Shown here one piece after another: positions 1 through 51,584 of a stretch of 52,382 bases of DNA (its first letter is position 1; each line of letters opens with the position of its first letter). The notes under the pieces are model-generated. The model was given only the letters and a program-made list of their open reading frames with translations, was not told where the DNA came from and ran no database searches. This DNA is from a virus. A program made the translations under genes and the position numbers. Location of the stretch: positions 1 through 52,382 of IMG/VR virus record IMGVR_UViG_3300034175_000204. The stretch is one strand, 5' to 3'.

Positions 1-1344
1 TTATCCTGACATTCTTGCCTCCTGTCGCAGCGCGGTAGGAGAGCTGGCTCCGGTACGTTTCCGGTGCAGGGAGCCCGGAGCCAGCTTCTCGATCTCGTCC
101 AGGATGGATTGCAGCGCGCGTTGCACGCTCGGGAACTCGCCGATCGCGTAGACCTCGGTCTGACTGCCGGCGCGGTGTCCCATGAACCCTTCCAGATCCC
201 AGCGCTCGGCACCGCGGTTTCGGCAGAGCGTCGCGATGCTGTGGCGGAGCAGGTACGCACGCCACTCGCGGCCCTTCGGCAGATCGAGCTTACCGAGCAT
301 CGTGTCCCACGCGCGGTCGACGTCCTGAACGGGGCGGCCGTGGTAGTTCACCAGCCAGCCGCGGCCGACGCGCGCCTCGGGCGCAAGCGCGAGGTAATCG
401 TCCAGCTCGGCCTGCAGCCACGTCGCGAGCAGCGGCATCACCGGCACCATCGCGCGGTGCTTCTTGTTCTGCGCGCGCCCCCGCGGGTTGAGGTCGATCA
501 GCGGGGCGCCTGGCCACCACTGCTGGCGATCGGGCGCCACGTTGATGTCCACGACGGCACCCGGGCGGGCGATCGTGCAGAGCGATCCGACCAGGAACGC
601 GTGCAGGGATCCCCGCTGCTTTCCCGGCTCCGCCGCGTAGCGGACCATGGCCGCCAACTCCTCGACCCCGACGCGCGTCCGGCGCTTTCGCTGGACCTGC
701 GCCGGCGGCAGGGGCCGGTAGATCGGGCGCTTGTCCGACCGCGGAGGATCGGCGTTCGCAGCGTGGTTCAACACGGCGATGACCTGCGCGATCGACGCCT
801 CGGTTGCGGCGGGAGATCGCGGCCGACTGACTGTCACCTCTCCCTTGCCGTTCCGCCACACGACCGGCTGCAATCGCGACCAGGCGCGCAGCGCATTGGC
901 GAACACGGTCGTGCAGGCGGCCGCGCAGCTCGTCGCGATGCCGAATCGGCCCTCGTCGCCGCGCGCCTCCTCGGCATCGAGGAAGTCGATGACGTGGTTC
1001 AGCCGCGATTCGATCGTGTCGGCCGAGGCGCGGGTGCTTCCCCACTCGAGCTTGTAGTCCGCGATCGCGTCGGTGAGCAGGTACGCCTGTGCCTGGGCGA
1101 GCGGCTGCCCGCACGCGCCGCAGAACGCGGGCGCTTCGTCAGCATCGGCAAGGTAGCGGCGATCGAGCGCTAGGATGGCGTCGCCTTCATCGGCCGTGCC
1201 CGTGCTCGCGCTTCGCTCGCGTCGCGCGTCTGGGTCGTACCAGAAGATGGTGAGGTATGGGCTCCGGCGGGTTCCGTCCGCGCGCTCGTCCCACCCGAGC
1301 CAGTATTTCCCCCGACGATAGACCGGCGGCGTGCGTCGCGACAT
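1..1344 (-). CDS. int: Tyrosine site-specific integrase (left end)
   Basis: A 447-aa tyrosine recombinase that should catalyse attP x attB integration. The catalytic core is visible: an Arg in the ARPGAV segment mid-protein, LLRHSIATL (R-H box), then MGHR about 20 residues later, followed by the TEVYA segment that supplies the Tyr nucleophile. A CxxC pair lies near residue 75 (CGACGQ), so a small zinc-binding arm domain is possible. It reads leftward and its stop codon is the first three bases of the window, so nothing beyond it is visible. It is the last gene of the leftward early operon and overlaps the upstream small ORF by 175 bp. It belongs to a different subfamily from the P4-type integrase at 44.8 kb. 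Confidence 0.9.
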   Translation of the reverse strand: MSRRTPPVYRRGKYWLGWDERADGTRRSPYLTIFWYDPDARRERSASTGTADEGDAILALDRRYLADADEAPAFCGACGQPLAQAQAYLLTDAIADYKLEWGSTRASADTIESRLNHVIDFLDAEEARGDEGRFGIATSCAAACTTVFANALRAWSRLQPVVWRNGKGEVTVSRPRSPAATEASIAQVIAVLNHAANADPPRSDKRPIYRPLPPAQVQRKRRTRVGVEELAAMVRYAAEPGKQRGSLHAFLVGSLCTIARPGAVVDINVAPDRQQWWPGAPLIDLNPRGRAQNKKHRAMVPVMPLLATWLQAELDDYLALAPEARVGRGWLVNYHGRPVQDVDRAWDTMLGKLDLPKGREWRAYLLRHSIATLCRNRGAERWDLEGFMGHRAGSQTEVYAIGEFPSVQRALQSILDEIEKLAPGSLHRKRTGASSPTALRQEARMSG

Positions 1345-1508
1345 GTCGACTGTTCCCTGATGTATTTGGCTTTTGCTTCGCCGGTGATGGTAAAGAGCCC
1401 GAGGGCGCCGAGCAGGTCTAGGTCGCCGGGCTCCAGACGCACGCCCTTGCCGATTTCGGCGGCGCGACTGAGCTTCTGATCGAGCTTGATGATGGAGGGG
1501 GCGTTCAA
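1170..1508 (-). CDS. Small unknown protein, TTG start, coupled to ATPase gene
   Basis: A 112-aa frame beginning at a TTG whose last two bases form the TGA stop of the upstream ATPase (TTGA overlap). The N-terminal half, residues 1-52 (MNAPSIIKL ... FTITGEAKAKYIREQ), looks like a genuine soluble protein with good GC3. The C-terminal half runs over the integrase start and is Ser/Thr/Arg-rich, so it may be readthrough of a frame that is only conserved at its N-terminus. No family is recognised. The overlap pattern matches the rest of the operon, which is the main support for the unusual start codon. Confidence 0.5.
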   Translation of the reverse strand: MNAPSIIKLDQKLSRAAEIGKGVRLEPGDLDLLGALGLFTITGEAKAKYIREQSTCRDARRRSIVGGNTGSGGTSARTEPAGAHTSPSSGTTQTRDASEARARARPMKATPS

Positions 1509-3046
1509 CTCGGGTCTCCCATGAGCCCAGGCGCGAGGCCCAGCTTCTTGTGGTGGTCGGAGATCAGCTCGGCCGCCTTTAGCTCGGCCACGCGGCCGCT
1601 GAAGGCACCGCCGGTCGGGACCATGTTGGCGAGTGCGGCGAGCTGCTGACGCGTGACAGGCCGCGGGTGGACGTCGGCCATGAGTTTGAGCAGCCGGCCG
1701 GCAGCGCCAAGGCGCTGGGCCCACCAAGCGACTAGCGCAGGGCCGGGCTCAGGCATTGACGGCACCGATCCGCCTGCCGCGGCGACGCCACTGTCAGTGG
1801 CGTACCAGCGGCCGTCGCGGCGCTCGATCCAGCCCGCTTCGACGAAGCGCCGACGACGGGCGTTCCACGCGCCGCCTTTGCGACTGTAGCCCGCACGTGC
1901 CGCCCATGCCGCCTCGGTCAAGCCGGCCGGGTGGATGGCCGCGAGGGTGCCGAGCGCGCCGAAATCGGAAGCGGACGCCCGAGCCGTCGCCCGGGCGTCC
2001 TCAACGGCGGACGTCGCCTCCGTGCCCTCCGCCGCTGTCCCGGAATCGGGTTCGGCACCCGAAACTGCATCGCTGGAATGCATGTTTGCATTCCCCGCCA
2101 GCGCCTCCTCGAGGCGCGCCACCCGCTCGAGCAACTGCTCCCATGCTCGAGGAGATGTGGCTTCTGCCTCGGCGATCGGATCGGCTGGCCCCTTTCCGGC
2201 GGCGAGGGCCTCCGCCAACGCGGCGAAGTCGACATCGGCGAGCGCCTGGGGCTCGGCTGCGTCGACGCCGGCGATCGGCGCGGCCGAGCTGTCGAAGGTC
2301 GTCAGCGCCGGAGAGCAGCCGCGCTCGAGCACGCTTTCGACCGGGCTGTAGACCCAGCGCTCGCCGCGCTTCAGCCCCGCAAGTGAGCCGAGGACCTGTT
2401 TGCGGGTCGCAGCATCCGCGTGGCTCTTCAGATATCGGTCGATCGGCGCCTGATCTTGCGGTGCGATCAGCCGGTGGATCACCATCGTCTGCGCCAGCGC
2501 GAGCACCGACTTGGCGATGTCGGCCGGCCGCTGGGTGATGACGGTCAGCACGAAGCCGCGGATGCGGCCGCGCTTCGCGATCCACGCGAGCGCCCGCCTC
2601 AGCTGGAACGCGTCGCTGTCTGGTACCAGCTCGGGCGCGAGCTCGTCGGCCTCATCGATGACGAGGTGCAGGTTGCCGATCGACTTGGTCCGCATTCGGG
2701 AGATGAAGGCGAGCGAAAAGGCGCGCTGCTCCTCCTCGTCCATCTCGCTGAGGTCGAGGATGGCCGAAACGCGCTGATCTATTAGCAGCTCGGCAACGCG
2801 CACGCCGTCGTCGGCGTCGATCGGCGCGTTCGCGTGCAGACCTCCGAAGATCGGGATGCGCACACCCGGGCCGTCGCCGGCGGCGTTCGACTGCATGCCC
2901 CACCACGCGCCGGTCGGATCGAGCACCACCACCTGGCGACCATCGACTAGCAGCTGCTCGACATAGCCCTTGCCGGTGACCGTCTTGCCGGCGCCAGTGG
3001 TGCCGACGATCGCCGTGTGCGTCTCGAGGAAGGCTGGGACGCTCAC
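1505..3046 (-). CDS. HerA/DUF87-type P-loop ATPase
   Basis: A 513-aa ATPase of the HerA/FtsK-like (DUF87) group that probably translocates or remodels DNA. Walker A GTTGAGKT is at residues 15-22 and Walker B LHLVIDEAD at about 126-134, with a sensor-like ITQRPADIA segment near 155. The last 150 residues carry winged-helix-like stretches. The frame is open back to 3199, but the upstream residues are Arg-rich noise. The GTG at 3046 overlaps the preceding stop (GTGA) and starts directly before the ATPase fold, so I choose it. It sits between a 72-aa unknown and the integrase, and no NurA-type nuclease partner is seen. It may serve replication, partition or recombination; the exact role is not determined. 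Confidence 0.85.
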   Translation of the reverse strand: MSVPAFLETHTAIVGTTGAGKTVTGKGYVEQLLVDGRQVVVLDPTGAWWGMQSNAAGDGPGVRIPIFGGLHANAPIDADDGVRVAELLIDQRVSAILDLSEMDEEEQRAFSLAFISRMRTKSIGNLHLVIDEADELAPELVPDSDAFQLRRALAWIAKRGRIRGFVLTVITQRPADIAKSVLALAQTMVIHRLIAPQDQAPIDRYLKSHADAATRKQVLGSLAGLKRGERWVYSPVESVLERGCSPALTTFDSSAAPIAGVDAAEPQALADVDFAALAEALAAGKGPADPIAEAEATSPRAWEQLLERVARLEEALAGNANMHSSDAVSGAEPDSGTAAEGTEATSAVEDARATARASASDFGALGTLAAIHPAGLTEAAWAARAGYSRKGGAWNARRRRFVEAGWIERRDGRWYATDSGVAAAGGSVPSMPEPGPALVAWWAQRLGAAGRLLKLMADVHPRPVTRQQLAALANMVPTGGAFSGRVAELKAAELISDHHKKLGLAPGLMGDPS

Positions 3047-3261
3047 GCCAGGGCACCCGCGGCGATCATCGCCGATACCGTGATCTCGGCGGTCATGCGC
3101 GGGCGAACGTCGCCGGGCGCGCCGATTCCCACGACGCCAAGCACCTGCGGAGAGACGTCGACCTGGGTGAAGATCACTGGATCGATTTCGGACACCCATC
3201 GGCCGAGCAGATCGACCAGCGCGCGGCGGCGAAGATCCTGATACGTCTTGGCCGCGTTCAC
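3043..3261 (-). CDS. Small conserved unknown (72 aa)
   Basis: A 72-aa protein with GTG start, ending in a GTGA overlap with the ATPase gene. The sequence has an amphipathic N-terminus (MNAAKTYQDLRRRALVDLLG) and a hydrophobic, beta-like middle and C-terminus ending in SAMIAAGALA. No domain is recognised. The tight coupling on both sides suggests it works with the ATPase, for instance as an accessory subunit, but that is inference from position. Confidence 0.65.
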   Translation of the reverse strand: MNAAKTYQDLRRRALVDLLGRWVSEIDPVIFTQVDVSPQVLGVVGIGAPGDVRPRMTAEITVSAMIAAGALA

Positions 3262-3542
3262 GCCCGCCGCCTCACGGCGAAGCCCAGGCGGCGGCGCGCT
3301 GCTCCATTCCGAAGGGTGCGGCCCCGAGGTCCAGCTTCACGATCGGACGCGGTGCCGCCGCCCCGGGGCTCGAGGCTCGGGGCTCGGGGCTCGGGGCTCG
3401 GGGCTCGGGGCTCGGGGCTCGGGGCTCGGGGCTCGGGGCTCGGCGGGGACGTCGCCGGTGGCGCGGCTGCGTCAAGCCCCAGCCGCCGGCGCTGCCACGG
3501 TGCGAGCTGGCGGCGCGCGATGCGGACGCGCAGCGCGCTCAC
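3258..3542 (-). CDS. Repeat-containing protein split by heptamer tract
   Basis: Open frame of 94 codons with GTG start in a GTGA overlap with the upstream gene. The N-terminus (MSALRVRIARRQLAPWQRR) has high GC3 (about 88% by my count). The middle is a run of (SPEPRAP)n encoded by a 7-bp repeat. After the repeat, the coding signature moves to another frame that reads RPIVKLDLGAAPFGMEQ and stops at 3272 (GC3 about 84%), whereas the annotated frame continues Arg-rich to 3258 (about 67%). Loss of one heptamer or gain of two would join the two good halves. As written the gene is probably out of frame; it may be phase-variable or the repeat count may be a sequencing error. Confidence 0.6.
   Translation of the reverse strand: MSALRVRIARRQLAPWQRRRLGLDAAAPPATSPPSPEPRAPSPEPRAPSPEPRAPSLEPRGGGTASDREAGPRGRTLRNGAARRRLGFAVRRRA
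3365..3441. repeat. Heptanucleotide tandem repeat, 11 units
   Basis: Eleven head-to-tail copies of GGGGCTC (plus strand). Unit 2 is the variant GAGGCTC and the other ten are perfect. The tract lies inside a coding region. Because 7 is not a multiple of 3, each gain or loss of one unit changes the reading frame, the classic structure of a slipped-strand switch. Confidence 0.95.
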
Positions 3543-3796
3543 AGCGCCAGCTCCGGCTCGTCGCCGAGCTCGGCGAATATGTGGCGAGGCACGCGATACG
3601 CGAGGACGTCGGTCCAGCGGATGTCGCCCGCCTCACGCGGCGGCTTCAGCTCGCAGGCGAGCGTGACAGTCTCGACCTCGACGTCGCGCTCGAGATTCGG
3701 CCACTCCCAAGCGTTCAGACGACGGAAGCCGCGCATGGCGAGGAAGCTGTCGAGCGGCCAATCGAGGCCGGCGGCGCGGATCGTGGCTGCGGTCAT
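3539..3796 (-). CDS. Small unknown protein (85 aa)
   Basis: An 85-aa acidic protein (MTAATIRAAGLDWPLDSF...) rich in aromatic and charged residues, typical of a small globular phage protein. ATG start in an ATGA overlap with the upstream 106-aa gene, and its stop overlaps the GTG of the repeat protein. No family recognised. Expected to be co-translated with its neighbours. Confidence 0.7.
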   Translation of the reverse strand: MTAATIRAAGLDWPLDSFLAMRGFRRLNAWEWPNLERDVEVETVTLACELKPPREAGDIRWTDVLAYRVPRHIFAELGDEPELAL

Positions 3797-4113
3797 GCCG
3801 CGCCCCGAGCGCTTGCGCGCTGCTGCTCGATTTCCGCGAGCGTCTTCAGATAGTCCGGCTTCAGCTCTCCGGCCTGCATTCGGATCAGGTCCGCGAAGGT
3901 GTCGAAGATCTCGGCCGGGTCAGTGTCCGGCTTCCTGATCTGCATCGCGACCATCACCGCGGCACCGAGCACGCCCGCGGCGATCTTCATCATTAGGACC
4001 GTCGTGTCGTGAGAGCCGAGGACGTGCTGGGCGAGCCTCATCTCGCGCTGGAGATCGTCCTGCAGCTTGCGCGTGATCTTGCGGCCGAGATCGGCGAGGA
4101 TCTGCTCGCTCAC
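3793..4113 (-). CDS. Small protein with central hydrophobic segment (106 aa)
   Basis: A 106-aa protein with GTG start that overlaps the ParB-like gene's stop (GTGA). Residues about 40-58 (MMKIAAGVLGAAVMVAMQI) form one hydrophobic stretch, either a membrane segment or a buried helix. They are flanked by an amphipathic N-terminal helix and an acidic C-terminal helix (DTDPAEIFDTFADLIRMQ). No family recognised. Confidence 0.7.
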   Translation of the reverse strand: MSEQILADLGRKITRKLQDDLQREMRLAQHVLGSHDTTVLMMKIAAGVLGAAVMVAMQIRKPDTDPAEIFDTFADLIRMQAGELKPDYLKTLAEIEQQRASARGAA

Positions 4114-6047
4114 TCTGCCGCCTCGATCAGTTCGAGGACGACCGATTCATCGGCCGGGCCCGGATCGCCGACGCCGCCGCCCTCCTGAGGCGGGGTGAAC
4201 GCCAGCAGAGGGTGTACCCAATCGTCCGCCGCGGCGCGGCAGCGGCGGGGGACGGCGTGGCCGGCGCCGTTCAGCGCCTGGGCGAGCAGGATGGTAAGTT
4301 CATCCGCCTTCGCCTTGCTCCACCGCGCGAGGCTGCCGGCATCGATGAGCGGTTCGGCGATCGCGAGCTGCTGCGCCTTCGGGAAGAGCGCCAGAAACTC
4401 GGCCGTCGGCGACCAGAGCGTGCGGATCGTGGCGGGGGTGCCGCGCGTCATCGCCGCGACCGCGGCGTGCGCCCGATGATCGAACCCAGGCGCGGCGGCG
4501 CTCCGCTCCAGCAGCAGTCCGGCGAGCACCGCACCGGCCAAGCGGCGATGCTGCTCGCCGGCGTTCAGGAAGTTGATGAACGCCGCGTCGTGATCCGCCT
4601 CGGTCATGAAGGTCTCGGCTGCGAGATCCTTCACCGCTGCCGTCCAGACGCAATGCGCCTGCTGCTCCTCGACCCGCTCGCGCGCGAGCTCGAACCCTGC
4701 GGTGGTGGTGCCGACCTCGTGATCGCTCGGGTTCGCCGCGCGCAAGCCCACCTGCTGGCGGGTCAGCAGCGTGCGCAGCTGCGCCCAGACCGCGTAGCTG
4801 CGGCCGACCTCACCACCGCGCTGCGCGTCCTCGACGATCAGCGCGCGCAGGGTCTCGCGGCGGACCGCGCGGATGGCGAACAGCGCCTCGGCCGACACGC
4901 CGTGCTCCTCGCGCGCGGCCGCCTTGGCAGGCTGGCCGTAGGTGTACGGGTCAGTGAGCGCTGCCGCGCCCTCCGCCCTGGGCGCACTCGCCCTGGTCTC
5001 GGCCTTGCCGGCTGGGCTGCCGTGCTTGGCCTTGCGGCTTTCCCACCAGTAGCTGACCTGCGGCTCGCCGGATTCGGTGACGTCGACCCAGGCGACAACG
5101 CCGTCGGCGATCTCCAGGCCACCGCCGACCTTCGCCCTAACGCTGGCGCGCAGCGTCTCGTCGGTGCCGCCGTAGCCGTTGCGCGGGGGCGCATCGACGA
5201 AGCGCAGGTCGGGGCGGGTCGAAAGCCGCGTCTGCACCTTGACCTGCTCGAGCCGCTCCTGGGCGAGCTTGGCGAGCAGGCCCTCGTCGACGACGCGGCC
5301 ACGCTGCTCCGCCTCATCGGCGAACAGGTCCAACTCGAAGCGTCCGCCAGCGGCGCGGTAGGCATCATCGCCGACCAGGCGGAGCCGGCGAAGGCCCGCG
5401 CGATCGCCAATCTTCATCGCCGCGCGGATCTTCTCAGGCGTGCGCAGGTAGGGATCGAGGTTGCGCAGCTGCTCGAACGTGGCAAGCTGCAGCTGCTGGT
5501 CTGCCGTTGCGGCATAGGCCCGCGCGGCGTCGATCGACAACTCGCCCTGGCTCAGCGTCTCGAAGATCGGCGGCGCGAGCTGACCGACGCGCATCTGGCG
5601 CCGCACGCGGTCGAGCGGCTGGCCGAGTGCGATGGCGATCGCCTCCGCGCTCTCACCCTTGGCAGCGAGACTGGCGACCGCTGCGCACACCTCATAATCC
5701 TGAAGATCGCGGCGCTGGATGTTCTCGCCAAGCGACAGCTCGATGATCTCGATATCGCTGTAGCCGCGATAGACCTCGACGCGGACCGGCCAGTCGGCCG
5801 GCAGGTCGCCGCGCGCCACCAGGTTCTTGATCGAGCGCGCGCGACGGCCGCCGGCGAAGGCGCCGAATTTCTTCGAGCCAAGCATCGGGTGGACGTTCAG
5901 CGGCTGGATCAGGCCGCGGCCGAGGATCGACGCCTCCATCGCGCTGAGCTCGACGATGTCCTTGCGGTGTCGGCGCACGTTGAACCGACTGACCTCGATC
6001 TGGTCGATGGTCATGGTTTCGGAGGTTCTGGTCTGGGTGCTAGGCAT
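4110..6047 (-). CDS. ParB/RepB/Spo0J-like protein (645 aa)
   Basis: Large protein with an N-terminal ParB/Srx-fold domain: VSRFNVRRHRKDI near residue 20, the GGRRARSIKNLV segment near 70, and the ParB box GENIQRRDLQDYE near 107-119. A HTH-like DNA-binding region follows (AIAIALGQPLDRVRRQMRV). The C-terminal 400 residues are unlike classical ParB. No parA gene accompanies it, so simple plasmid-style partition is not supported. Such ParB-domain proteins occur in phages as CTP-binding or nuclease-like DNA-binding factors. ATG start. It overlaps the zinc-finger gene by 8 bp and the following gene by 4 bp. Role in replication or DNA organisation is inferred. Confidence 0.85.
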   Translation of the reverse strand: MPSTQTRTSETMTIDQIEVSRFNVRRHRKDIVELSAMEASILGRGLIQPLNVHPMLGSKKFGAFAGGRRARSIKNLVARGDLPADWPVRVEVYRGYSDIEIIELSLGENIQRRDLQDYEVCAAVASLAAKGESAEAIAIALGQPLDRVRRQMRVGQLAPPIFETLSQGELSIDAARAYAATADQQLQLATFEQLRNLDPYLRTPEKIRAAMKIGDRAGLRRLRLVGDDAYRAAGGRFELDLFADEAEQRGRVVDEGLLAKLAQERLEQVKVQTRLSTRPDLRFVDAPPRNGYGGTDETLRASVRAKVGGGLEIADGVVAWVDVTESGEPQVSYWWESRKAKHGSPAGKAETRASAPRAEGAAALTDPYTYGQPAKAAAREEHGVSAEALFAIRAVRRETLRALIVEDAQRGGEVGRSYAVWAQLRTLLTRQQVGLRAANPSDHEVGTTTAGFELARERVEEQQAHCVWTAAVKDLAAETFMTEADHDAAFINFLNAGEQHRRLAGAVLAGLLLERSAAAPGFDHRAHAAVAAMTRGTPATIRTLWSPTAEFLALFPKAQQLAIAEPLIDAGSLARWSKAKADELTILLAQALNGAGHAVPRRCRAAADDWVHPLLAFTPPQEGGGVGDPGPADESVVLELIEAAE

Positions 6048-13696: not shown

Positions 13697-13854
13697 GCGA
13701 GCCGGCGCAGCGGCGAGGCGGCAGCCGTTCGCCGCTGCGCCCCGATCGCCAGGTGACGTTCCGGCTTGGCTGGGTGCATGTCGAGGCGGCCGCGCTGGGG
13801 CTGGCGATGCTCGCGTCGGCGATCGTCGCGGTCATGGGCTGGCTCGATGTGTAA
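13693..13854 (+). CDS. Tiny single-pass membrane protein (53 aa)
   Basis: GTG start overlaps the upstream stop (GTGA). A basic N-terminus is followed by one hydrophobic helix (AALGLAMLASAIVAVMGW) at the C-terminus, and the stop overlaps the SRAP start by 8 bp. Below the usual ORF length limit. Function unknown. Confidence 0.5.
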   Translation: MSEPAQRRGGSRSPLRPDRQVTFRLGWVHVEAAALGLAMLASAIVAVMGWLDV

Positions 13855-14464
13855 CCGCGCGCGCAACCGGGCCGAGCCGGAGACGCTGTTCGCGACCTTC
13901 GGCGGCGGGTGGCTGAGCGACAAGCCGATGGACAACCGGTTCAACCCGGTCGAGCTGGTGCCGCGCGGCCGGGCCTATGTCGTTCGGCGCGAGAGCGGGG
14001 CGATCGGCGTCGACGTCATGAGCTGGGATTTGCTCGGCGGCAGCGCGGCCTATCCCATCACCAACGTGCGCGACCTGAAGCGATGGCGGCCGCGGCTGGA
14101 GAAGCCGGAGGGCCGGTGCATCATTCCGCTCACCGAGTTCTGCGAGTGGACGCCGGATAAGCACGACATCGGCGGCGGCAAGCCGATCAAGGGCGAGATG
14201 TGGTTCGACGTCGTCGACCAGGACGTGTTCGCTGTTGCGGGCGTGTGGCAGCAGCTGGGCGACAAGCGCTGGTTCGCGATGCTGACGTGCGACGCGAACC
14301 CGCTGGTCGAGCCGATCCATCCGAAAGCGATGATCACGATCCTGGCGCCGGAGGATCACGAGCGTTGGCTGACCGGGAGCTACGACGACGTCCTGGCGCT
14401 GCAGCGGCCGTATCCGGCCGAGGCGATGACGGTGCGGGGGCCGGTGTTTCCGACGCGAGAATAA
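13847..14464 (+). CDS. SRAP peptidase (SOS response-associated, YedK/HMCES family)
   Basis: A 205-aa SRAP protein. Start set at ATG 13847 so that the catalytic Cys is residue 2 (MCNRAR), as the family requires after Met removal. The active-site Glu is in EFCEW (usually FYEW) and the conserved His in PIHPKAM (usually IHxRMP). SRAP proteins crosslink to abasic sites in single-stranded DNA and protect them from cleavage. In a prophage this could protect replicating phage DNA. The last motif is diverged, so activity should be tested. Confidence 0.9.
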   Translation: MCNRARNRAEPETLFATFGGGWLSDKPMDNRFNPVELVPRGRAYVVRRESGAIGVDVMSWDLLGGSAAYPITNVRDLKRWRPRLEKPEGRCIIPLTEFCEWTPDKHDIGGGKPIKGEMWFDVVDQDVFAVAGVWQQLGDKRWFAMLTCDANPLVEPIHPKAMITILAPEDHERWLTGSYDDVLALQRPYPAEAMTVRGPVFPTRE

Positions 14465-14489: not shown

Positions 14490-14518
14490 TTGCAAGGACC
14501 GGAAAGCGGTCTTATACA
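14490..14518 (+). promoter_or_regulatory. Strong promoter with built-in operator
   Basis: TTGCAA (14490-14495), 17-bp spacer, TATACA (14513-14518). The spacer contains a perfect inverted repeat GACCG-GAAAG-CGGTC at 14497-14511. A dimeric repressor bound there would shut the promoter. It drives the three-gene operon 14568-15513, whose last gene is an HTH protein. Confidence 0.7.
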
Positions 14519-14525
14519 GTTCTCA

Positions 14526-14546
14526 CGGCGGGCGACGGGCCCGCCG
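14526..14546 (+). terminator. GC-rich leader hairpin
   Basis: CGGCGGGC-GACGG-GCCCGCCG, an 8-bp perfect stem just downstream of the promoter, with no T-run. It could end readthrough from the SRAP gene or act as an RNA leader element or second operator. Confidence 0.45.
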
Positions 14547-14567
14547 ACCTCCAGATGGAGACGGACG

Positions 14568-14807
14568 ATGACGCAGACCGACACCACCACCATCGACTTT
14601 AACGCCATCGACTATGCAGCGACGGCAGCGGCGATCGCGCGGTATCTGACCGGCTTGGATGCTTGGGGCCAGGAGGGGCAGACGGGATCGCTGATGCGCG
14701 GCATCTGCGCCGACGTGCTGGCTGCCAAATATGTCCTGGATGCCGACGTGATCGGCAACAGCTTCGTGGGCTGGACACGGCACCGCGGTCTCTTGGTGGC
14801 GGCGTGA
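14568..14807 (+). CDS. Small unknown, candidate anti-CRISPR (79 aa)
   Basis: A 79-aa mildly acidic protein starting MTQTDTTTIDFNAIDYAATA, the first gene after the strong promoter. No family recognised. Position before a small ORF and an Aca2/YdiL-like regulator is the arrangement used to find anti-CRISPR genes; the activity is untested and the idea rests on context. Confidence 0.6.
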   Translation: MTQTDTTTIDFNAIDYAATAAAIARYLTGLDAWGQEGQTGSLMRGICADVLAAKYVLDADVIGNSFVGWTRHRGLLVAA

Positions 14808-15127
14808 TCCGCCGGAAAAGACCATATCGCCGGCTCGCTCTGAAGATTGCGCCGGATGCCATCGGCTGGACGCTGATGAACGCCACGCCCCCACCCCATG
14901 CGCTGACCCGCGCGGCGATCGATGGCGATCCCATTGAGGCACTGCTGGAGAAAGCGGCGCAGGGCCGGGCGGCAGGGGCGCGGAGCATCTTTCTGTACCG
15001 TTATTCGCGCGAGACGTTCGGGATGCGTCGCAACGGGATGACCTTCCACGAGCACGAGGCCCTGATCCCGCGCGCTGTAATCGCGCTTCATGATGCAGGT
15101 TACACGGTCGATTTCGAGGACGTATGA
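14804..15127 (+). CDS. Small unknown, candidate anti-CRISPR (107 aa)
   Basis: GTG start in a GTGA overlap with the upstream gene. An alternative ATG lies about 25 codons in (MNATPPPHALT). The body has helical and basic segments (SIFLYRYSRETFGMRRNGMT) and an acidic C-terminus (VDFEDV). No domain recognised. Second gene of the three-gene operon. Confidence 0.6.
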   Translation: MIRRKRPYRRLALKIAPDAIGWTLMNATPPPHALTRAAIDGDPIEALLEKAAQGRAAGARSIFLYRYSRETFGMRRNGMTFHEHEALIPRAVIALHDAGYTVDFEDV

Positions 15128-15513
15128 TGACGCCAGCCGAACTCGACACGCGCCGCCGCATGCTCGGCTTGTCTGTGGACGAGACTGCGGCGCTTTGCGG
15201 GGTGCAGGATCGCCAGATCCGGCGGTGGCAGTCGGGAGCGCAGCCGATCGCGCGCGACGTGCCGGCGAGGCTGGAGGCGCTGGAGGAAGCGATGGAGCAC
15301 GCCGTCGAAGAGATCGTCGCACTTGCGACCGACAAGGTGCTGGATGGGCCTGTCACCCTGTGGCGATACCGCACGGCGGCGGACCAGGCGCAGAGTCCGA
15401 ACGCGCGCGGCATCCCGCTTGGCGCCCACGCGATGCTTACCGCCTGGGCGGCGGATGCGCTGGCAGCCGAAGGGATCGACGTGACCATCGAATGGGCAAG
15501 CGTCGATGCCTGA
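15124..15513 (+). CDS. Aca2/YdiL-like HTH regulator (DUF1870-like)
   Basis: A 129-aa protein, ATG in an ATGA overlap. The N-terminal HTH reads RRRMLGLSVDETAALCGVQD then RQIRRWQSGAQPIARDV. A helical linker follows, and a C-terminal YdiL-like domain with TLWRYRTAADQ and IPLGAHAMLTAWAADAL. This two-part layout matches Aca2 of phage ZF40, which represses its acr-aca operon by binding an inverted repeat in the promoter. Such a repeat is present at 14497-14511. DUF1870 proteins also occur outside acr loci. Confidence 0.7.
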   Translation: MMTPAELDTRRRMLGLSVDETAALCGVQDRQIRRWQSGAQPIARDVPARLEALEEAMEHAVEEIVALATDKVLDGPVTLWRYRTAADQAQSPNARGIPLGAHAMLTAWAADALAAEGIDVTIEWASVDA

Positions 15514-15596: not shown

Positions 15597-15884
15597 ATGG
15601 AAATCGCGAGCATCACCCACAAGGCGCTCCGCCGATTCGCCGAGACAGGCTCGACCAAGGGCCTGCCTTCGGAGTTCGTCGGGCGTCTGACCGGCATGCT
15701 TGCGTTCCTTGCGGACGCGGGATCCATCGAGACGCTCAAGCTGCCGCCCAATTACGGGGCGCACGAGCTGAAGGGCGACCGGGCGGGCACATGGTCGCTG
15801 ATCGTCTCACGCAACTGGCGCATGACATTCGGCCTCGACGAGGTCGGAGCGATCGTCGATCTGGACTTGGAGGATTATCACTGA
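15597..15884 (+). CDS. higB: HigB-type toxin (RelE superfamily)
   Basis: A 95-aa RelE/HigB mRNA interferase candidate. ATG at 15597 follows AAGG. The fold-typical pieces are ...KALRRFAETGSTKGLP, then KLPPNYGAHELKGDRAGTWS and LIVSRNWRMTFGL. The last supplies the Arg/Trp residues of HigB and RelE-type toxins (SVSRNWRxxF). It precedes its antitoxin, the toxin-first order characteristic of higBA. Probably a plasmid/prophage stabilisation module. Confidence 0.9.
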   Translation: MEIASITHKALRRFAETGSTKGLPSEFVGRLTGMLAFLADAGSIETLKLPPNYGAHELKGDRAGTWSLIVSRNWRMTFGLDEVGAIVDLDLEDYH

Positions 15885-16186
15885 TGGGCATCACGCTTCA
15901 CTGGTCGATCGCGGTTCATCCCGGCGACTGGCTTAAGGCCGAGATCGTAGAGCCGCACGGCCTTAGCGTCACCGACGCGGCGGGGCTGCTCCATGTATCG
16001 CGCCAGGCGCTCAGCACGCTGCTGAACGGCCGCGCAGACTTGTCGCCCGCAATGGCGATCCGGTTCGAAAAGGTGTTCGGCATCGATGCCGACACGCTTT
16101 TGCGAATGCAGACCCGATGGGACATCAAGCAGGCGCGCGAGCACCAGGACGAGATCATCGTCGAGCGCTCGCTGGTTGCGGCGTGA
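15884..16186 (+). CDS. higA: HigA-type antitoxin
   Basis: A 100-aa HigA with PGDWLKAEIVEPHGLSVTDA then AGLLHVSRQALSTLLNGRAD, the HigA/VapI HTH, and a C-terminal ...MQTRWDIKQAREH segment typical of HigA. It overlaps higB by one base (TGATG). It should neutralise HigB and repress the operon. Confidence 0.9.
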   Translation: MGITLHWSIAVHPGDWLKAEIVEPHGLSVTDAAGLLHVSRQALSTLLNGRADLSPAMAIRFEKVFGIDADTLLRMQTRWDIKQAREHQDEIIVERSLVAA

Positions 16187-44598: not shown

Positions 44599-44762
44599 GG
44601 GTATCGGGGGCCCTCACAGGCGCAGAATTGCGCCACCACGGCGGATCGGACCTCCGCCGCGCTCCACATTAAATCATGTGTTCCGCGCCGATCGCCACGG
44701 CCGGCGCGGCCTGGCTCGGGTCGATCGACGCGGGGCGCCTCCTCTCACAAACCGAGGTTAAC

Positions 44763-45986
44763 ATGCTCACCAACGCCGACCTCAAGAGAGTGCGGACGCG
44801 TGATCGCGCCTACAAGCTGGCCGACGCCGGCGGCCTCCATCTCTACGTCGCACCGACAGGGCTGAGGTCCTGGCGGTGGCGCTTCCGCCTCGGCGGAAAG
44901 GAGCAGCTGCTGACGATCGGCGGCTTTCCGGACGTCTCCCTCGACGCAGCCCGGGCCCAGCGTGATCGCGCGCGTGAGCAGCTCGGCCGCGGCGAGGATC
45001 CGCGCGCGGCTGCGAGCTCCGACGATTCGCGAGTTCGTGCTTTCGAGTATGTCGCCCGGGGCTGGCTAGCGCACATGCGCCCGCGCTGGACCGAGGTGCA
45101 TGCGGCCGACGTGCTCGCCAGCCTCGAGCGCGACGTCTTCCCCGCGATCGGCGCCATGCCGATGGGCGCCATCACCACGCCGGTGGTGCTGAACGCCCTG
45201 CGCTCAGTCGAGCAGCGCGGCCGCCTCGAGACGGCCCGACGCGTGCGTCAGCGGATCTCGGCCGTGTTCGCCTTGGCGATCGCCCAGGGTCTGGTCGAGC
45301 ATGATCCAGCGGCGATCGTCGGCAAGGCGCTGATGCCGCCGGCACCACCGCAGCATCATGCCGCGCTCCTCGACGTCGATGACGCGCGCGAGCTGCTCGC
45401 GGCGGCCGAGCTGGTCGACGCGGCGCCTGTGATCAAGCGGGCGTCACGCTTCCTGGCCCTCACGGCCGTGCGCCTCGCGGCGGTCCGCGGCGCGTGCTGG
45501 TCCGAGATCGAGGACCTCGACGGCCTAGCGCCGCTGTGGCGCGTGCCTGCCGCGCGCATGAAGCTGAAGGCGGCGAAGAAGCTCGATTCGAGCAACGACC
45601 ACCTGGTACCGCTGTCGCGCCAGGCGGCCGAGCTGCTGCGCGAGATCCGCGACGAACACGTTGCCGGCGCCGGCAACCTGTTCTTCCCGGGTCGCCTCGC
45701 CGGCCGGCCGATCGGTGAGGCGGCGATCGGCGACCTCTACGATCGCGCGGGCTTCGCCGGCCGTCACGTGCCGCACGGCTGGCGCGCGACCTTCTCGACG
45801 ATCCTCAACGAGCGCTTCCCGGACCAGCGAGGCCAGATCGACCGCGCGCTAGCCCACGCCAGCGGCGCCCGGGACAAGGTGGAGGAGGGCATCAACGCGA
45901 AGGTGGAGGGCGCGTACAACCGCAGCCAGCAGCTGGCACCGCGGCGCGAGCTCTTCCAGGCCTGGGCAGACGCGCTGGTCGGGTGA
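44763..45986 (+). CDS. int: P4-type tyrosine integrase (right end)
   Basis: A 407-aa integrase starting MLTNADLKRVRTRDRAYKLA with GAGG six bases upstream. The N-terminal DUF4102 domain (LADAGGLHLYVAPTGLRSWR) defines the P4/CP4-57 subfamily. The catalytic core has LTAVRLAAVRGACWSE (first Arg), PHGWRATFST (H-x-x-R) and LAHAS...VEGAYNR (final His and Tyr). These integrases usually target tRNA 3' ends, consistent with the tRNA-Thr fragment 1.75 kb downstream. A TTAAAT-type AT-rich patch at 44,669 may belong to its promoter. Confidence 0.95.
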   Translation: MLTNADLKRVRTRDRAYKLADAGGLHLYVAPTGLRSWRWRFRLGGKEQLLTIGGFPDVSLDAARAQRDRAREQLGRGEDPRAAASSDDSRVRAFEYVARGWLAHMRPRWTEVHAADVLASLERDVFPAIGAMPMGAITTPVVLNALRSVEQRGRLETARRVRQRISAVFALAIAQGLVEHDPAAIVGKALMPPAPPQHHAALLDVDDARELLAAAELVDAAPVIKRASRFLALTAVRLAAVRGACWSEIEDLDGLAPLWRVPAARMKLKAAKKLDSSNDHLVPLSRQAAELLREIRDEHVAGAGNLFFPGRLAGRPIGEAAIGDLYDRAGFAGRHVPHGWRATFSTILNERFPDQRGQIDRALAHASGARDKVEEGINAKVEGAYNRSQQLAPRRELFQAWADALVG

Positions 45987-46051
45987 GGGTGGGGCAGGGC
46001 ACCCGACCAACCTGGGGTCCGCCCCAGGTTGCCGAGGGGCTCGCCCCACCC
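45987..46051 (+). terminator. Nested hairpins after P4 integrase
   Basis: Outer GGGTGGGGC (45987-45995) and GCCCCACCC (46043-46051) enclose a perfect AACCTGGGG-TCCG-CCCCAGGTT hairpin (46009-46030). Starts directly after the integrase stop; a strong transcription stop or structured 3' end. Confidence 0.6.
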
Positions 46052-46140
46052 CCGGAGGGTCAAAAGTCGGGGCAGTCGCCCCCCGGACACCGCATGGTGC
46101 CGCCGTGCGCACTGCGAGGAGATCCAGACCAAAAAGTTCG

Positions 46141-46401
46141 TCACCGCGGCACAGGCTCCGCAGGGAGAGGGTTGGCGGAAAAGCCGGCCCTCCAGCGCTT
46201 GCGACCTTCGGCCAGCCACGCAGCGGCCATCGCCCTCGCGTGATCGTGGGCAGCCTCGTTATTTTGCGACATGAGCACGCAGTACCGAATTTGCGTGATC
46301 GCGGAGGGTCTCAGCCTGCGGCTTGCGGGAGAGTATCCAGCGTCGAAGAAGGGAGCTGCGCGCTCCAAGGCATCGAGGATCGTATCGGTCTCGCCGCGCA
46401 T
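46141..46401 (-). CDS. Small unknown protein (86 aa)
   Basis: Frame is open to 46455, but ATG 46401 has CTGGAG seven bases before it. Protein begins MRGETDTILDALERAAPFFD and contains PSAITQIRYCVLMSQNNEAA, helical. No family recognised. Divergent from nothing nearby; leftward like the rep-like gene. Confidence 0.45.
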   Translation of the reverse strand: MRGETDTILDALERAAPFFDAGYSPASRRLRPSAITQIRYCVLMSQNNEAAHDHARAMAAAWLAEGRKRWRAGFSANPLPAEPVPR

Positions 46402-46486
46402 CGAAAACTCCAGAAGGTAGAGCGCCGCATGCGCGACGCCGGGGGAGGGGGGCACGCTTCGCGCCGGGTCCCCCTCGACAGCCCGG

Positions 46487-46601
46487 GGCGGCGCAAGCCG
46501 CCACGTTCCGACAGCCTGGTCTTGGCTGTCGGGTGCGTGTGTCGGTCCGTTGCCGCCGTGGGGGACTACAAACTAGCGCCGACCTCGCGTTCAGCGAGGT
46601 C
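46487..46601. repeat. Cluster of three perfect hairpins
   Basis: GGCGGC-GCAA-GCCGCC (46487-46502), CCGACAGCC-7-GGCTGTCGG (46508-46532) and GACCTCGC-5-GCGAGGTC (46581-46601) in a 190-bp non-coding gap downstream of the rep-like gene. Could be terminators, an origin region or small RNA. Confidence 0.6.
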
Positions 46602-46644
46602 GTTCCTCATCATTCTAAAGACCTGTCGTTGGATAGCGGTCGTT

Positions 46645-47487
46645 TCACGGACTCACGCTTGTGAGCGTGGCGCCAACCCTGGCGAGGACGGCACGGAGCT
46701 CCGGATCGTGGACCTCGGCGGCCGTCGGCTCGCCCGGCCTGACTGTCGCTGGGATCGCACCCAGGCGGCGGAGCCGCACCGTCAGAAGCTGCTTGAAGCG
46801 CGACCAGGTGCGCTGCGCCATCTTGGTTTGTAGTGGAAACAGGTAGGCGTTGGACGTCTGCTCGCGCTGCGGGGCGAACTCGCCCTTGGCGTCCGTCCGG
46901 ATGCTTCGCCTCACCCAATCGACGAGGCCGTTCGCCTTCAGCCGCGCGATCCCCTCCTTGGCCGCCGTGAGGCTGACCCCGGCGGTGGCGGCGATCGTCT
47001 CGTAAGTCGGGAACAGTTGGCCCGTCGCGAAGTCCAGAAAGTGGACCAGCCCGCGCAGCACGACGATGTCGATTCGCCGGAGCGCGCGGCGCGCTCTAAC
47101 GATCAGCGCGTCGATCGCCTGCAGCTCCAGCCTCAGCGCCGCGCGTGCGCCTGGCGGCGAGTCGGCGGCCGCTTCGTGGCGCTCCAACTCGCCCGCGATC
47201 AGCGGCCGCTTGCCTTCAGCCGCGCGCACTTCGGCAGGCGGGAGCTCGCGCCACTGCTGATGGCGGAGTTCGTCGGCGGCCTGGACGAGCGCGTCGCGGA
47301 ACGCGAGACCCTGACCGGCCGAGCCGTCGCCGATCGGCTTCCAAGGTTTGGCCTTGGGATCGTCAACGTCGTAGCTTTCGCGGCGCACGTGGGGGTCTGG
47401 GCCGCGTTGGCGGCCCGTCAAGTGGGCTGTGAACTGCCGGGTCAGCAGCCGCGCCTGGCGCGCGATCGGTCTGGAGGTATGCGACAT
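46645..47487 (-). CDS. Replication-initiator-like winged-helix protein (280 aa)
   Basis: The C-terminal half holds TGQLFPTYETIAATAGVSLT then AAKEGIARLKANGLVDWVRR, the winged-helix pattern of RepA/replication-initiator and helix-turn-helix proteins of integrative elements. The N-terminal half has helical, basic segments (RALRRIDIVVLRGLVHFLDF). GGGAG precedes the ATG at 47487. Located between an integrase and attR, it could start replication of an excised small element or regulate it. Assignment is tentative. Confidence 0.6.
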   Translation of the reverse strand: MSHTSRPIARQARLLTRQFTAHLTGRQRGPDPHVRRESYDVDDPKAKPWKPIGDGSAGQGLAFRDALVQAADELRHQQWRELPPAEVRAAEGKRPLIAGELERHEAAADSPPGARAALRLELQAIDALIVRARRALRRIDIVVLRGLVHFLDFATGQLFPTYETIAATAGVSLTAAKEGIARLKANGLVDWVRRSIRTDAKGEFAPQREQTSNAYLFPLQTKMAQRTWSRFKQLLTVRLRRLGAIPATVRPGEPTAAEVHDPELRAVLARVGATLTSVSP

Positions 47488-47530
47488 CGTGTCGGCTCCC
47501 GATGGGAAGTCGATGGGCGCACGAAAGCGC

Positions 47531-47593
47531 CGGCTGAACTGGCGTGTTCAGCCGCGCGCTTTGCGTGGTGGCGATGCGCTCCTCGCGGAGCGC
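47531..47593. repeat. Two hairpins upstream of the rep-like gene
   Basis: CGGCTGAAC-6-GTTCAGCCG (47531-47554) and GCGCTCC-TCGC-GGAGCGC (47576-47593), both perfect, within 110 bp of the rep-like start codon. Possible operators or origin structures. Confidence 0.6.
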
Positions 47594-47660
47594 CGATGTC
47601 GGTGAATGGCCGTTCGACGGCAGTCCGGTGCGGCTCCGGTGTTAGCCGAAGATCGCGATG

Positions 47661-47725
47661 GAAAACTGCGGCTTTCGCCCCCGGCCTAGCTGGCTAAAAC
47701 GTCACGAAAACCGCGGAAAACCGCG
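47661..47725. repeat. Direct repeats GAAAACYGCG beside attR
   Basis: GAAAACTGCG at 47661-47670, GAAAACCGCG at 47706-47715 and 47716-47725, the last two in tandem. They are 13-77 bp from the tRNA fragment, the place for integrase arm-type sites, or they could be replication iterons. Confidence 0.55.
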
Positions 47726-47737
47726 CTGTCCGTTTCG

Positions 47738-47782
47738 TTCGTAATGCGGGGGTCACAGGTTCGAGTCCTGTAAGCGGCACCA
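47738..47782 (+). other. attR: 3' half of a tRNA-Thr(CGT)
   Basis: From the anticodon loop TTCGTAA (anticodon CGT at 47740-47742) through the 3' anticodon stem TGCGG, T-arm ACAGG-TTCGAGT-CCTGT, acceptor strand AAGCGGC, discriminator A and encoded CCA. The 5' half is missing (upstream bases do not pair). This is what a prophage inserted into a tRNA 3' end leaves at its distal junction. The intact tRNA should lie left of the window. Confidence 0.8.
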
Positions 47783-48124
47783 CACTCGTGACATTGCACC
47801 CGATAAAGACTGATAGAGAACAAAAGCGGGCACCTCAGCGAGGTGCCGAGCACGATGGCAGCCGAAACTGCGGCTTGCCTTGTCGAAGGATGTTGCTGAA
47901 AAAGTGTTCTTGCCACGTAGTGGCGGGGCAGCATGATCACCGGCTTTAGCACCGCCGCCTCCGCCAAGAGCCTCGCGTGAAGGATGGCGACAGGAAGCTG
48001 CGCAACGCCCCCGGGAGTTCTGCGGTGAGGGGGAGTACATGACCAAGCTGGCCGGGATCGCTCAACCTGCAGGCCCAGGACGCCTGGCCCGTCCTGCCGC
48101 GGGCCGAAACATCGCGGGCGCCTG
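47783..48124. other. Intergenic 342-bp stretch, chromosome side
   Basis: No credible gene. A GGCACCTC-AGC-GAGGTGCC hairpin at 47829-47847 lies 47 bp after the tRNA end and may terminate the tRNA transcript. Confidence 0.55.
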
Positions 48125-49666
48125 TCAGCCGGGCAAGGGTCCGAAATGACGTCCCATGCGCTCCATCCACCCCGCGGACTCCGCCACCGTTGCGGACGGC
48201 GCGGGCGCCTGGACGAAGAGGTCGCGCGCCTCCGGATAGAGGCGCACCAGCAGTTCGGCACCGCAATCGGTCAGTAACGCCTCGATGCGGGACACCACGC
48301 GATCGGACGCGTCTTCCTTTCCGCTGTCCCAGATCGCGCGCAGCTGCCCGCGCCGTCTGCCCGCCACCTCCGCCACCGCGGCCTGCCAGAATGCCGGATG
48401 TTCGCCCTGGGCGAAGTCCCCGCGCCCGCGCCCGAAGTGCGCGACCGCCAGATAGCGCAACAGCGCCGACTGGATGAGCTGCGCGAAGAACTCCTCCGAC
48501 CACCGCACCGCCGCGCCCTCCTCGCCGCGGGCCATGTTGTAGCCACGCGCGAGTCCGCCGGCACCGATCGCCCCCAGCAGCCCGCCGACGATCATGCCGC
48601 CGCCGAGCGTCAGGCCGCCCGCGGCTAGGTCGGCCGCCAGCCCGCCGACTGCCCCCGACATCAGGCCGCCGAGCATCGCCGAATAGCCCTCCTTGGCCGG
48701 TGCCGAGCTGGCGTAGTCGTCGCGCAGACGCTGCAGCACCTCGCGCACCGCATTGCCGGTCAGACCGTGCACGTCGATCAGCTGCTCGGTCGACGACCGC
48801 GTTCCGGCTTCCAGGCGGTTGGCGAGGCTCGCCATGGCGCGCCGCGCCTCCGCCGGCGCCTCCTGGCGCAGGCCGCCCAGCGCGTCGCCGACCTTGTCGC
48901 GCCAGTTGCGGTCGGAAACCGGCTCGCGGTCGGCAACCGCGGCGGCGAGCGGCGTGGCGAGAATGTGCATCGCCGCGTGGAAGCGCGCGAGGTTCCTCTC
49001 GCGCCACGCCAGCGTCAGCCGATCGAGCGTGGCCTGCTTCTCCGGCGGCAGCAGCGGGCCGACGGTGTCGAGGAGCGTCGCCTCCTGCACCCAGCAGCGT
49101 GCGAAGGCGTCGAGCGGCAGGGCGCCGGCGACCACGCCGCTCGACGCGAGATGGGTCCGCCAGCGCTCGACCTCTTCGTTCGCGTCGGCGCGCGGTGGCC
49201 CCATCTGGTTGAGCAGCAGGATCACCGGCTTCCCGATCCAGGCAAGAAGCTCCATCTCCAGCGGTACGTACGCCGCGCCGGCGGGGTCCTCCGCTGCGTT
49301 GACCAGGTATAGGACGACATCGGCGTGGTCGCGTGCGTTGCGCACCGCCTGCTGACTCGACCAGAGCGGTCGCTCGCGGAACCGGTCCCACACCTGGGTG
49401 AGCAGCCAGCCGATGGGATTGCCCGAGATCCTGAGCCGCTTCAGCAGCCGCCCGGTATCGCCGAACCCCGGCGTGTCCCACAGCATCAGCGTATCGGCAC
49501 CGGACTGCACCAGGACGTAGCCGGTCGCCTGATCGGTGACGTGCGCGGCGTCGCGCACCTCGCCGACATCCTGCCCGAGCAGCGTGCGAACCAGCGTCGT
49601 CTTGCCGGCGTTGGTGTGCGACACCAGGCTGAGGTTGACCGTGGCGGTGTAGGGGTTGTCGCTCAT
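48125..49666 (-). CDS. DUF3482 GTPase
   Basis: A 513-aa GTPase, start ATG 49666 (ATGA overlap with the DUF2868 gene). P-loop SHTNAGKTTL near residue 16-25, G3 DTPGFGDTG near 64, G4-like NQMG near 145. The C-terminal half has a Gly/Ala-rich hydrophobic hairpin (GLMSGAVGGLAADLAAGGLT; GGLLGAIGAGGLA), probably membrane-inserting, and a helical end. Encoded with the DUF2868 membrane protein, as in many proteobacteria. Function of the pair is unknown; it belongs to the chromosome, not the prophage. Confidence 0.9.
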   Translation of the reverse strand: MSDNPYTATVNLSLVSHTNAGKTTLVRTLLGQDVGEVRDAAHVTDQATGYVLVQSGADTLMLWDTPGFGDTGRLLKRLRISGNPIGWLLTQVWDRFRERPLWSSQQAVRNARDHADVVLYLVNAAEDPAGAAYVPLEMELLAWIGKPVILLLNQMGPPRADANEEVERWRTHLASSGVVAGALPLDAFARCWVQEATLLDTVGPLLPPEKQATLDRLTLAWRERNLARFHAAMHILATPLAAAVADREPVSDRNWRDKVGDALGGLRQEAPAEARRAMASLANRLEAGTRSSTEQLIDVHGLTGNAVREVLQRLRDDYASSAPAKEGYSAMLGGLMSGAVGGLAADLAAGGLTLGGGMIVGGLLGAIGAGGLARGYNMARGEEGAAVRWSEEFFAQLIQSALLRYLAVAHFGRGRGDFAQGEHPAFWQAAVAEVAGRRRGQLRAIWDSGKEDASDRVVSRIEALLTDCGAELLVRLYPEARDLFVQAPAPSATVAESAGWMERMGRHFGPLPG

Positions 49667-51177
49667 GCGCCGGCTCCCGCGAGCACCGGGCCACGCAGCA
49701 GCGCCGCCTCCAGTCGGCGCGACTGCTCGGGCGACTCCCCGGCGCCGAGGTGAACCGCGATCGGCCTGACGGCCATCGGCGCCATCATCCTCTCCCAGGC
49801 CGTGCGGCGCGTCTCGATGCGGCCGTCGGCCCCAGCCTGCCCACCGAGACGCGCGCGATATGCGGTCTCGTCCAGCAACGCGGCGAGCGCCGTGCCGCTT
49901 CGTTGCGCGTCCATGAGACGCCTGATGCCGGCCAGGAGTTCGCCGTGGTTCTCCGCCTCGGGCGTGGCGGCCAGGTTGAACAGCGCCACGAGATAGTCGT
50001 CGTCCTCCCGCAGTCGCAGCCCGGCCAGCCATTCCTCTTCGCCGGCATACGCGATCGCGGGCTCCGTCTCGATCACGGTGTCGTCCCCGAAGGTGCCTCT
50101 CAGCAGGCGCTCGAGCACTCGCCGGTGCGCATCGGGGAAGGCGAATCCGTAGGGGACTATCCTCACCCTGGTCCCGCCACCCCGGCCGTCACGCAAGACG
50201 CGCCGCACGTAGAAGTCCTCCCGACCCGGCACCTTGAAGAAGCGGCGCAGCCGTGCGGCCGACAGCGCGCTCCACGCGGCGAGCGCGAGCCGCGGAAGGA
50301 CGACGAACAGCATGGCGGTGGTCGCATAGAGGTGGATCCAGGGTCCGGCGTTCTCGCCATTGGCGGGCATGCCCCAGCGGAGCGCAGCCAGCAGCTCCAC
50401 GCCGGGCAGCGCGATCCCGGTCAGCATGCTCGCCGGCGCCAGCACCCAGCCCAGCAGGCGCTGCAGCGTTGCGGCACCGATGAACGTGCTTTCCCAGCCA
50501 GCGCGGTATTCGACGCCGAGCGCACGCAGGTACATGCCCGCGACGACGCCGATCGCCAGCGCCGCGGCCGAGAGGTGGAGCAGGCGCGCTGCGCGCGCGT
50601 AGGTCAGCGCGCCGGCATGGCTCGCCCAATCGCGCGCGAACCGGGCGATGGCGCGACCGACCGGATGGTGCGGGTCCTGATCACGGCGCGCTATGCCGCT
50701 CGCCCAGCTAACAGCCCGCGCGGTCCACGGCGCCTTGTCATGCGGATCGCGGCGACGGAACGGTGCGCCTGCGGCATGCGCCGCGATCAGCAGGTAGACG
50801 GCGAGGTTCCAGAGGAGGATGCCGAACAGCGGGAAGGCGATGATATTCAACCGCTGCCCGCCAGCGAGCTCGTTGGTGGCGACGCCAAGCGCGACCGCGG
50901 CGAGGGGAAGTGCCCAGTCGAGCCAGCCCGGCCAACGCGTTGCCCGCGCCGCACGTCCGATCGCCGGATGCCGCGCCGTGAGGCGCGACAGGGCGAACGC
51001 CGCGCGGCTTGAGAGGAAGCGCTGATCCGCCCGCCGCCCGCTCGCGTTGCCCGGTTCCGCCGACAACGCCGATGCCGTGGCCGCCTGACGGTCGTCCCGC
51101 GTCAGCAGTGCCTGGGCGGCGTCCTCCGTCTCGACGGCCCGGATCAGCAGCAGGGTTCGGGCGTCGTCCTCGTTCAT
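49663..51177 (-). CDS. DUF2868 membrane protein
   Basis: A 504-aa protein with several membrane helices (LDWALPLAAVALGVATNELA; IIAFPLFGILLWNLAVYLLI; further pairs near 205-225 and 245-300) and a cytosolic C-terminal part (VRIVPYGFAFPDAHRRVLER ...). The N-terminal ARTLLLIRAVETED and membrane pattern match DUF2868, which is regularly paired with the DUF3482 GTPase. First gene of the two-gene operon. Confidence 0.9.
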   Translation of the reverse strand: MNEDDARTLLLIRAVETEDAAQALLTRDDRQAATASALSAEPGNASGRRADQRFLSSRAAFALSRLTARHPAIGRAARATRWPGWLDWALPLAAVALGVATNELAGGQRLNIIAFPLFGILLWNLAVYLLIAAHAAGAPFRRRDPHDKAPWTARAVSWASGIARRDQDPHHPVGRAIARFARDWASHAGALTYARAARLLHLSAAALAIGVVAGMYLRALGVEYRAGWESTFIGAATLQRLLGWVLAPASMLTGIALPGVELLAALRWGMPANGENAGPWIHLYATTAMLFVVLPRLALAAWSALSAARLRRFFKVPGREDFYVRRVLRDGRGGGTRVRIVPYGFAFPDAHRRVLERLLRGTFGDDTVIETEPAIAYAGEEEWLAGLRLREDDDYLVALFNLAATPEAENHGELLAGIRRLMDAQRSGTALAALLDETAYRARLGGQAGADGRIETRRTAWERMMAPMAVRPIAVHLGAGESPEQSRRLEAALLRGPVLAGAGA

Positions 51178-51517: not shown

Positions 51518-51584
51518 GCGATCGCCCGCCGCTGCCGCGTTGCGCCCCCGGGGCGCGGCAACGCGCGCGGTCCTGCCCACGGGT

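Follow-up and report, generated by a model that had tools for sequence, protein, structure and literature searches.

Aca2 reportedly binds both DNA and RNA (Birkholz et al. 2024, Nature 631:670), and a dual autorepression resting on the two activities is said to have been described for it. The most useful reference for the locus presented here is the acrIF8-aca2 operon of the Pectobacterium phage ZF40 (NC_019522), in which the promoter (TTGCTT-[GTTCGCGATTGCGAACA]-TATAAT) holds the operator within a 17-bp spacer and is followed by a stem-loop (CGGTTCGAG-ATGG-CTCGAATCG), by a short hairpin lying over the Shine-Dalgarno sequence (TCCT-AACG-AGGA) and then by the ATG. Residues R30 and V17 of ZF40 Aca2 are essential or important (PMC8434428, PMC9410881). 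The contexts of Aca2-like genes are varied (PMC8434428), plasmids included, and a known acr was found upstream of 35 out of 1223 of them, about 3% (PMC9410906). In several Aca families, DNA binding alone suffices for repression (PMC9410906).

The DNA analysed, hereafter the window, is an IMG/VR virus record of 52,382 bases that encodes terminase, portal and tail genes together with an integrase, and the phage is temperate. In the stretch that runs from the gene of a Cro/C1-type HTH regulator (10380) to the packaging genes, its plus strand carries three consecutive genes that very probably form an Aca2-type autoregulated operon. The reading of the whole that we favour, with moderate confidence, is that of an early accessory operon of the acr-aca2 type under dual autorepression, in which gene A would be the cargo and gene B would act on the regulator, gene C. 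Gene A (14568-14807, 79 aa), gene B (14804-15127, 107 aa, with a GTG start) and gene C (15124-15513, 129 aa, or 128 if the second ATG at 15127 is used) are joined by the 4-nt overlaps GTGA (14804-14807) and ATGA (15124-15127), just as the initial annotation had described them. With the phage structural genes as reference, the codon-usage log-odds per codon were +0.36, +0.19 and +0.27 for A, B and C in their own frames, the other frames being negative or at most near zero. A 413-aa antisense ORF over the operon was rejected, its codon usage being non-coding like that of all long antisense ORFs.

The product of gene C belongs to the Aca2/YdiL family. It matched Pfam PF08965 (Aca2_YdiL, DUF1870) over residues 2-105 with 31.6 bits, the curated cut-off being 23.8, and in the PDB it matched Aca2 (7ezy, E=1.2e-4) and YdiL (1s4k, E=0.019). 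Its alignment to 7ezy (query residues 2-121) and to 10 relatives delimits an N-terminal HTH and a C-terminal dimerisation domain, that is, the two-domain fold that YdiL of Salmonella/E. coli and SO3848 (2ox6) also present. The initial annotation had read this 129-aa HTH protein in the same way, correctly as judged by the Pfam and PDB matches, and its proposal of an Aca2-like autoregulator gains support from these matches, from the order of the domains, from the operator position and from the leader layout shared with ZF40. Of the five DNA-contact residues of ZF40 Aca2, C retains V17 and R30 (the latter as R29); Q33, Y34 and R39 are replaced by R, R and A, at positions that vary also in actinobacterial relatives and in those of the type found at locus L059 (see below). 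Since these three residues are replaced and the operator half-sites lie one base closer together, the specificity of C probably differs from that of ZF40 Aca2.

The promoter TTGCAA-[GGACCGGAAAGCGGTCT]-TATACA (14490-14518, plus strand) is composed of a -35 hexamer at 14490-14495, a 17-bp spacer and a -10 hexamer at 14513-14518. Its hexamers and spacing stand as annotated, but the description as near-consensus does not, 8 of the 12 positions matching the E. coli sigma-70 consensus, which makes a fair promoter. TTGCAA-N17-TATACA was absent from the stock scan listing; its assignment draws on the hexamers and on a place and spacing like those of ZF40. The spacer contains the annotated inverted repeat GACCG-GAAAG-CGGTC at exactly 14497-14511 (no strand assigned), inside the core promoter as in acr-aca2 operons, and this position and a joint chance test mark it as the predicted DNA operator. 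Its half-site GACCG fits the pattern G-N-Y-C-G, as do GTTCG in ZF40 (GTTCG-N6-CGAAC) and GGTCG in Pasteurella phage CFP3, Serratia pSF001 and Photobacterium toruni, the half-sites being separated by 5 bases in the window instead of 6. The GC-rich leader hairpin was likewise present where it had been reported, at 14526-14546 (plus strand), beginning 42 nt 5' of the start codon of A. This 8-bp stem-loop, SL1 (CGGCGGGC-GACGG-GCCCGCCG), had folding z-scores of -2.3 and -3.1 in two computations and is, from its shape, position and relatives, the predicted RNA operator for C. In addition to what had been annotated, a 4-bp hairpin (CTCC-AGAT-GGAG, 14549-14560, plus strand) lies over the Shine-Dalgarno sequence and has its counterpart in the TCCT-AACG-AGGA of ZF40, so that the first gene is preceded, as in acr-aca2 operons, by a leader stem-loop beside the ribosome-binding site.

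The window and ZF40 therefore share the order promoter/operator, stem-loop, Shine-Dalgarno hairpin, small gene(s) and aca2, and the distances for the window and ZF40, respectively, are -78 and -79 for the promoter, -64 and -65.5 for the centre of the inverted repeat, -32 and -31.5 for that of SL1 and -13.5 in both for the Shine-Dalgarno hairpin, all positions agreeing within two bases. The two loci show no similarity in DNA or in cargo, the SL1 loop has 5 nt in the window and 4 in ZF40, and, unlike in ZF40, two genes precede aca2, the second being probably a relative of the Aca2 C-terminal domain. An inverted repeat and a stem-loop both at the right distances arose in 1 of 4000 dinucleotide shuffles of the region. 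When the promoter-spacer condition was added, 2 of the 9342 ATGs of the window and of 26 related viral or genome loci qualified, namely that of gene A and a spurious one (ATG 6384 of locus L004), which was rejected as a chance pass produced by an intergenic hairpin in a capsid region. As the hairpins were sought by eye and by scan, these figures represent a test of layout and not of covariation, the stem-loops being compared by position and shape; alignment of the leaders at the sequence level was not meaningful, and an Rfam search returned no relevant match.

Further upstream regions were compared for aca2 genes retrieved by protein homology only. The operator and SL1 are common to CFP3, Serratia pSF001 and P. 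toruni, with a matching SL1 distance; SL1 is interrupted in Pm86 and Pmp12 and shorter in P. damselae, and an SL1-type element is found also in L059 (twice) and, imperfect, in the viral locus L065. The solo aca2 genes of E. coli (ydiL), Y. ruckeri and Prescottella have no such operator/stem-loop leader. The leader layout, whole or in part, is thus recurrent in mobile aca2 operons and absent at the solo cases checked. L065 (2728-2998) carries a ZF40-like operator (ATGTTCGC-AATC-GCGAACAT), its imperfect leader stem-loop has the loop ATTGG, and its 64-aa cargo gene is another acr candidate. In two more loci (L062, 2630-3004, and L063, 2636-3004), genes of about 110-124 aa that look related by eye lie directly upstream of aca2, as a recurring partner. 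Nine viral loci of the subfamily of C were recovered by a degenerate scan for which C and one relative served as seeds. The nearest relative of C, with 66% identity, is found in L066 (IMGVR_UViG_3300020045_016851), where A and B are absent, the upstream genes are different, a 64-aa gene precedes aca2 and no stem-loop comparable to SL1 was found in the surroundings. Aca2-family matches in alphaproteobacterial genomes (L031-L033) were distant or solo and were set aside as uninformative.

By analogy with Aca2, C would be expected to control the operon at both the DNA and the RNA level, which we consider fairly likely. The RNA step gains support from the sequence of L059 (contig C166 of the Pseudomonadota genome G543, 1700-3074), which encodes a C homologue of 36-39% identity. 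Like the window, L059 has two small genes followed by aca2, and a stem-loop with a 5-nt loop ending in GG. Its promoter (TTGACA-[TGTTCACCAATGATGAA]-CATAAT) holds the operator in the spacer and is followed by the stem-loop (GAGGTTGCG-ATAGG-CGCGACCTC), a Shine-Dalgarno sequence and a 112-aa gene. A 117-aa gene comes next, preceded by 23 nt that repeat the stem-loop and its Shine-Dalgarno context exactly, while aca2 has a plain Shine-Dalgarno sequence with no stem-loop before it. Unlike in the window, each cargo gene has its own stem-loop, the cargo is unrelated and no B-like gene was recognised. Two such stem-loop matches were obtained in none of 200 shuffles, and no promoter was seen at the intergenic copy. 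Because this copy is intergenic, with one stem-loop per cargo gene and none before aca2, a translational operator fits, and a DNA operator would hardly account for it. Within the subfamily that includes the C of the window, the repeats thus support control at the RNA. They also weigh, together with the equal distance of SL1 in ZF40, CFP3, Serratia and P. toruni, against C acting at the DNA only and SL1 being an ordinary stabilising 5' hairpin, a possibility that we regard as unlikely even though hairpins are common in such a GC-rich region and other Aca families manage with DNA binding.

As to the genes placed under this control, the initial annotation considered both small ones to be orphans, which holds for A and probably not for B. 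No sequence match to B was obtained in Pfam, PHROGs, NCBIfam or the PDB, tblastn in phages and plasmids and peptide-pattern scans of viral and genome contigs recovered no homologue, and plain pairwise tests of B against the Aca2 C-terminal domain were not significant. However, hhalign comparison of B with a C-terminal-domain profile made from 12 members of the subfamily of C gave a score of 21.5 (p 0.0017), which was equalled or exceeded by 2 of 2000 shuffles and by 1 of 586 unselected ORFs, itself an Aca2-like protein, with one spurious ORF nearly tying (21.34). No other window protein compared with this profile scored as high as B. An earlier, smaller profile had given p 0.098 in the same register, and by eye the segment IFLYRY...HEALIPRAVIALHDAGYTV of B parallels VTLWRY...HAMLTAWAADALAAEGIDV of C. 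An AlphaFold model of B was built without alignment (mean pLDDT 61.5, with blocks of about 65-82 over residues 41-107). Among 1000 chains compared by VIA-align, its best match was 2ox6 (SO3848, Aca2 family), with a Z of 6.8, a value common among unrelated folds, and an rmsd of 2.1 over 67 residues. The C-terminal half of B superposed on SO3848 residues 63-137, and the next unrelated row had a Z of 5.2; Foldseek against the PDB and BFVD found no significant match. On the profile and the model, B is probably an HTH-less protein of the Aca2 C-terminal-domain type, with the likeness in residues 41-107.

Seen from this angle, a relative of the C-terminal domain of the repressor that lacks the HTH is a better reading of B than an anti-CRISPR. 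A plain acr-aca2 operon, with A and B both anti-CRISPRs and the likeness of B due to chance, would suit the operon form, the Aca2 regulator and the lack of database matches to B. It would also suit the comparable mobile aca2 operons, which carry small cargo proteins with no match in Pfam, NCBIfam or PHROGs. Yet it is improbable when B outscores 1998 of 2000 shuffles and the other window proteins in the profile test and has a member of the Aca2 family as its top structural match. If B is indeed such a relative, the opposite charges of the two proteins (pI 9.9 for the basic B, with an arginine-rich N-terminus, and pI 4.6 for C) make a B-C complex plausible. That B modulates C, rather than being directed at the host, can be predicted only tentatively. 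Equally speculative is its origin as an aca2 copy that lost the HTH and kept the dimerisation domain, so that mixed B-C dimers would bind DNA or RNA poorly and provide a built-in tuner.

Gene A encodes an acidic protein (pI 4.6) for which no homologue was found in the family searches, Pfam included, by tblastn in phages or by a peptide-pattern scan of viral contigs, and its single-sequence model was unreliable (pLDDT 58). Neither A nor B showed homology to any of the families searched, whether of anti-CRISPRs or of other proteins. Its position and small size make A the likeliest cargo and a reasonable candidate for counter-defence of some kind, anti-CRISPR included, the odds being slightly against an anti-CRISPR proper. 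Of the two small proteins, one or both of which the initial annotation had proposed as anti-CRISPRs, A alone is a clean candidate.

The terminase has relatives in Rhodobacter and Roseobacter phages and in one alphaproteobacterial MAG, which point to an alphaproteobacterial host; searches with the integrase and DUF2868 did not place the host group. Aca2-family matches were absent from all 17 records of terminase relatives that were searched, and tblastn found none of A, B and C in phages sharing the terminase. The closest phage found across the operon region, L003, has homologues of 10380, 16374 and 16766 with different genes between them. Given that the terminase-sharing phages have neither the Aca2 family nor A, B or C by these searches, the operon is, on such comparisons, an exchangeable accessory cassette in a variable phage region. 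An SRAP (SOS response-associated peptidase) domain gene of the phage accessory region lies directly upstream (13847-14464), and a higB-higA toxin-antitoxin pair (15600-16186; PF05015 and HTH_3) directly downstream. The left end of the window (1-6047, minus strand) encodes a HerA/TraD-like ATPase, a ParB-like protein and a protein of 447 aa with no Pfam match that looks recombinase-like by eye. Beyond the integrase (44676-45986), the DUF3482 GTPase and DUF2868 genes of positions 46000-52382 have the look of host chromosome, which suggests a prophage with its flank.

The diverse contexts and plasmids in which Aca2-like genes are found, the small share of them lying beside a known acr and the adjacent higBA pair would agree with a cargo that serves as a phage regulator, in superinfection exclusion or in lysogenic conversion instead of in counter-defence. 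We hold such a cargo to be rather unlikely, considering that the leader layout is that of acrIF8-aca2 and that the part of the phage around the operon is accessory and variable. In the mechanism we propose for a dually autorepressed operon with counter-defence cargo, one promoter would drive A, B and C. As C accumulates, its dimer would bind GACCG-N5-CGGTC between the -35 and -10 hexamers and exclude RNA polymerase. C would also bind SL1 at the mRNA 5' end, where, together with the adjacent Shine-Dalgarno hairpin, it would block ribosome entry at A, and the block may pass to B and C by coupling through the 4-nt overlaps. The counter-defence cargo A would thus be made in a burst and then shut off, while B, as a short HTH-less dimerisation-domain relative, may act on C, for example by forming mixed dimers through which repression is weakened or timed.

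In this scenario, Aca2-style control of DNA and RNA would extend to a phage that is very rich in GC and whose operator has diverged. The leader layout, with its operator in the promoter spacer, stem-loop and Shine-Dalgarno hairpin, may offer a route to counter-defence cargo where protein homology fails, and gene A, with no relatives known, is a fresh candidate inhibitor. We know of no Aca operon with an HTH-less tuner component. Should the tuner reading of B be true, the operon would hold both a brake and a brake-release, with the release made before the brake. With B as a probable HTH-less paralogue, and with the stem-loops that L059 has before each cargo gene, the logic by which acr operons are controlled becomes open to testing.
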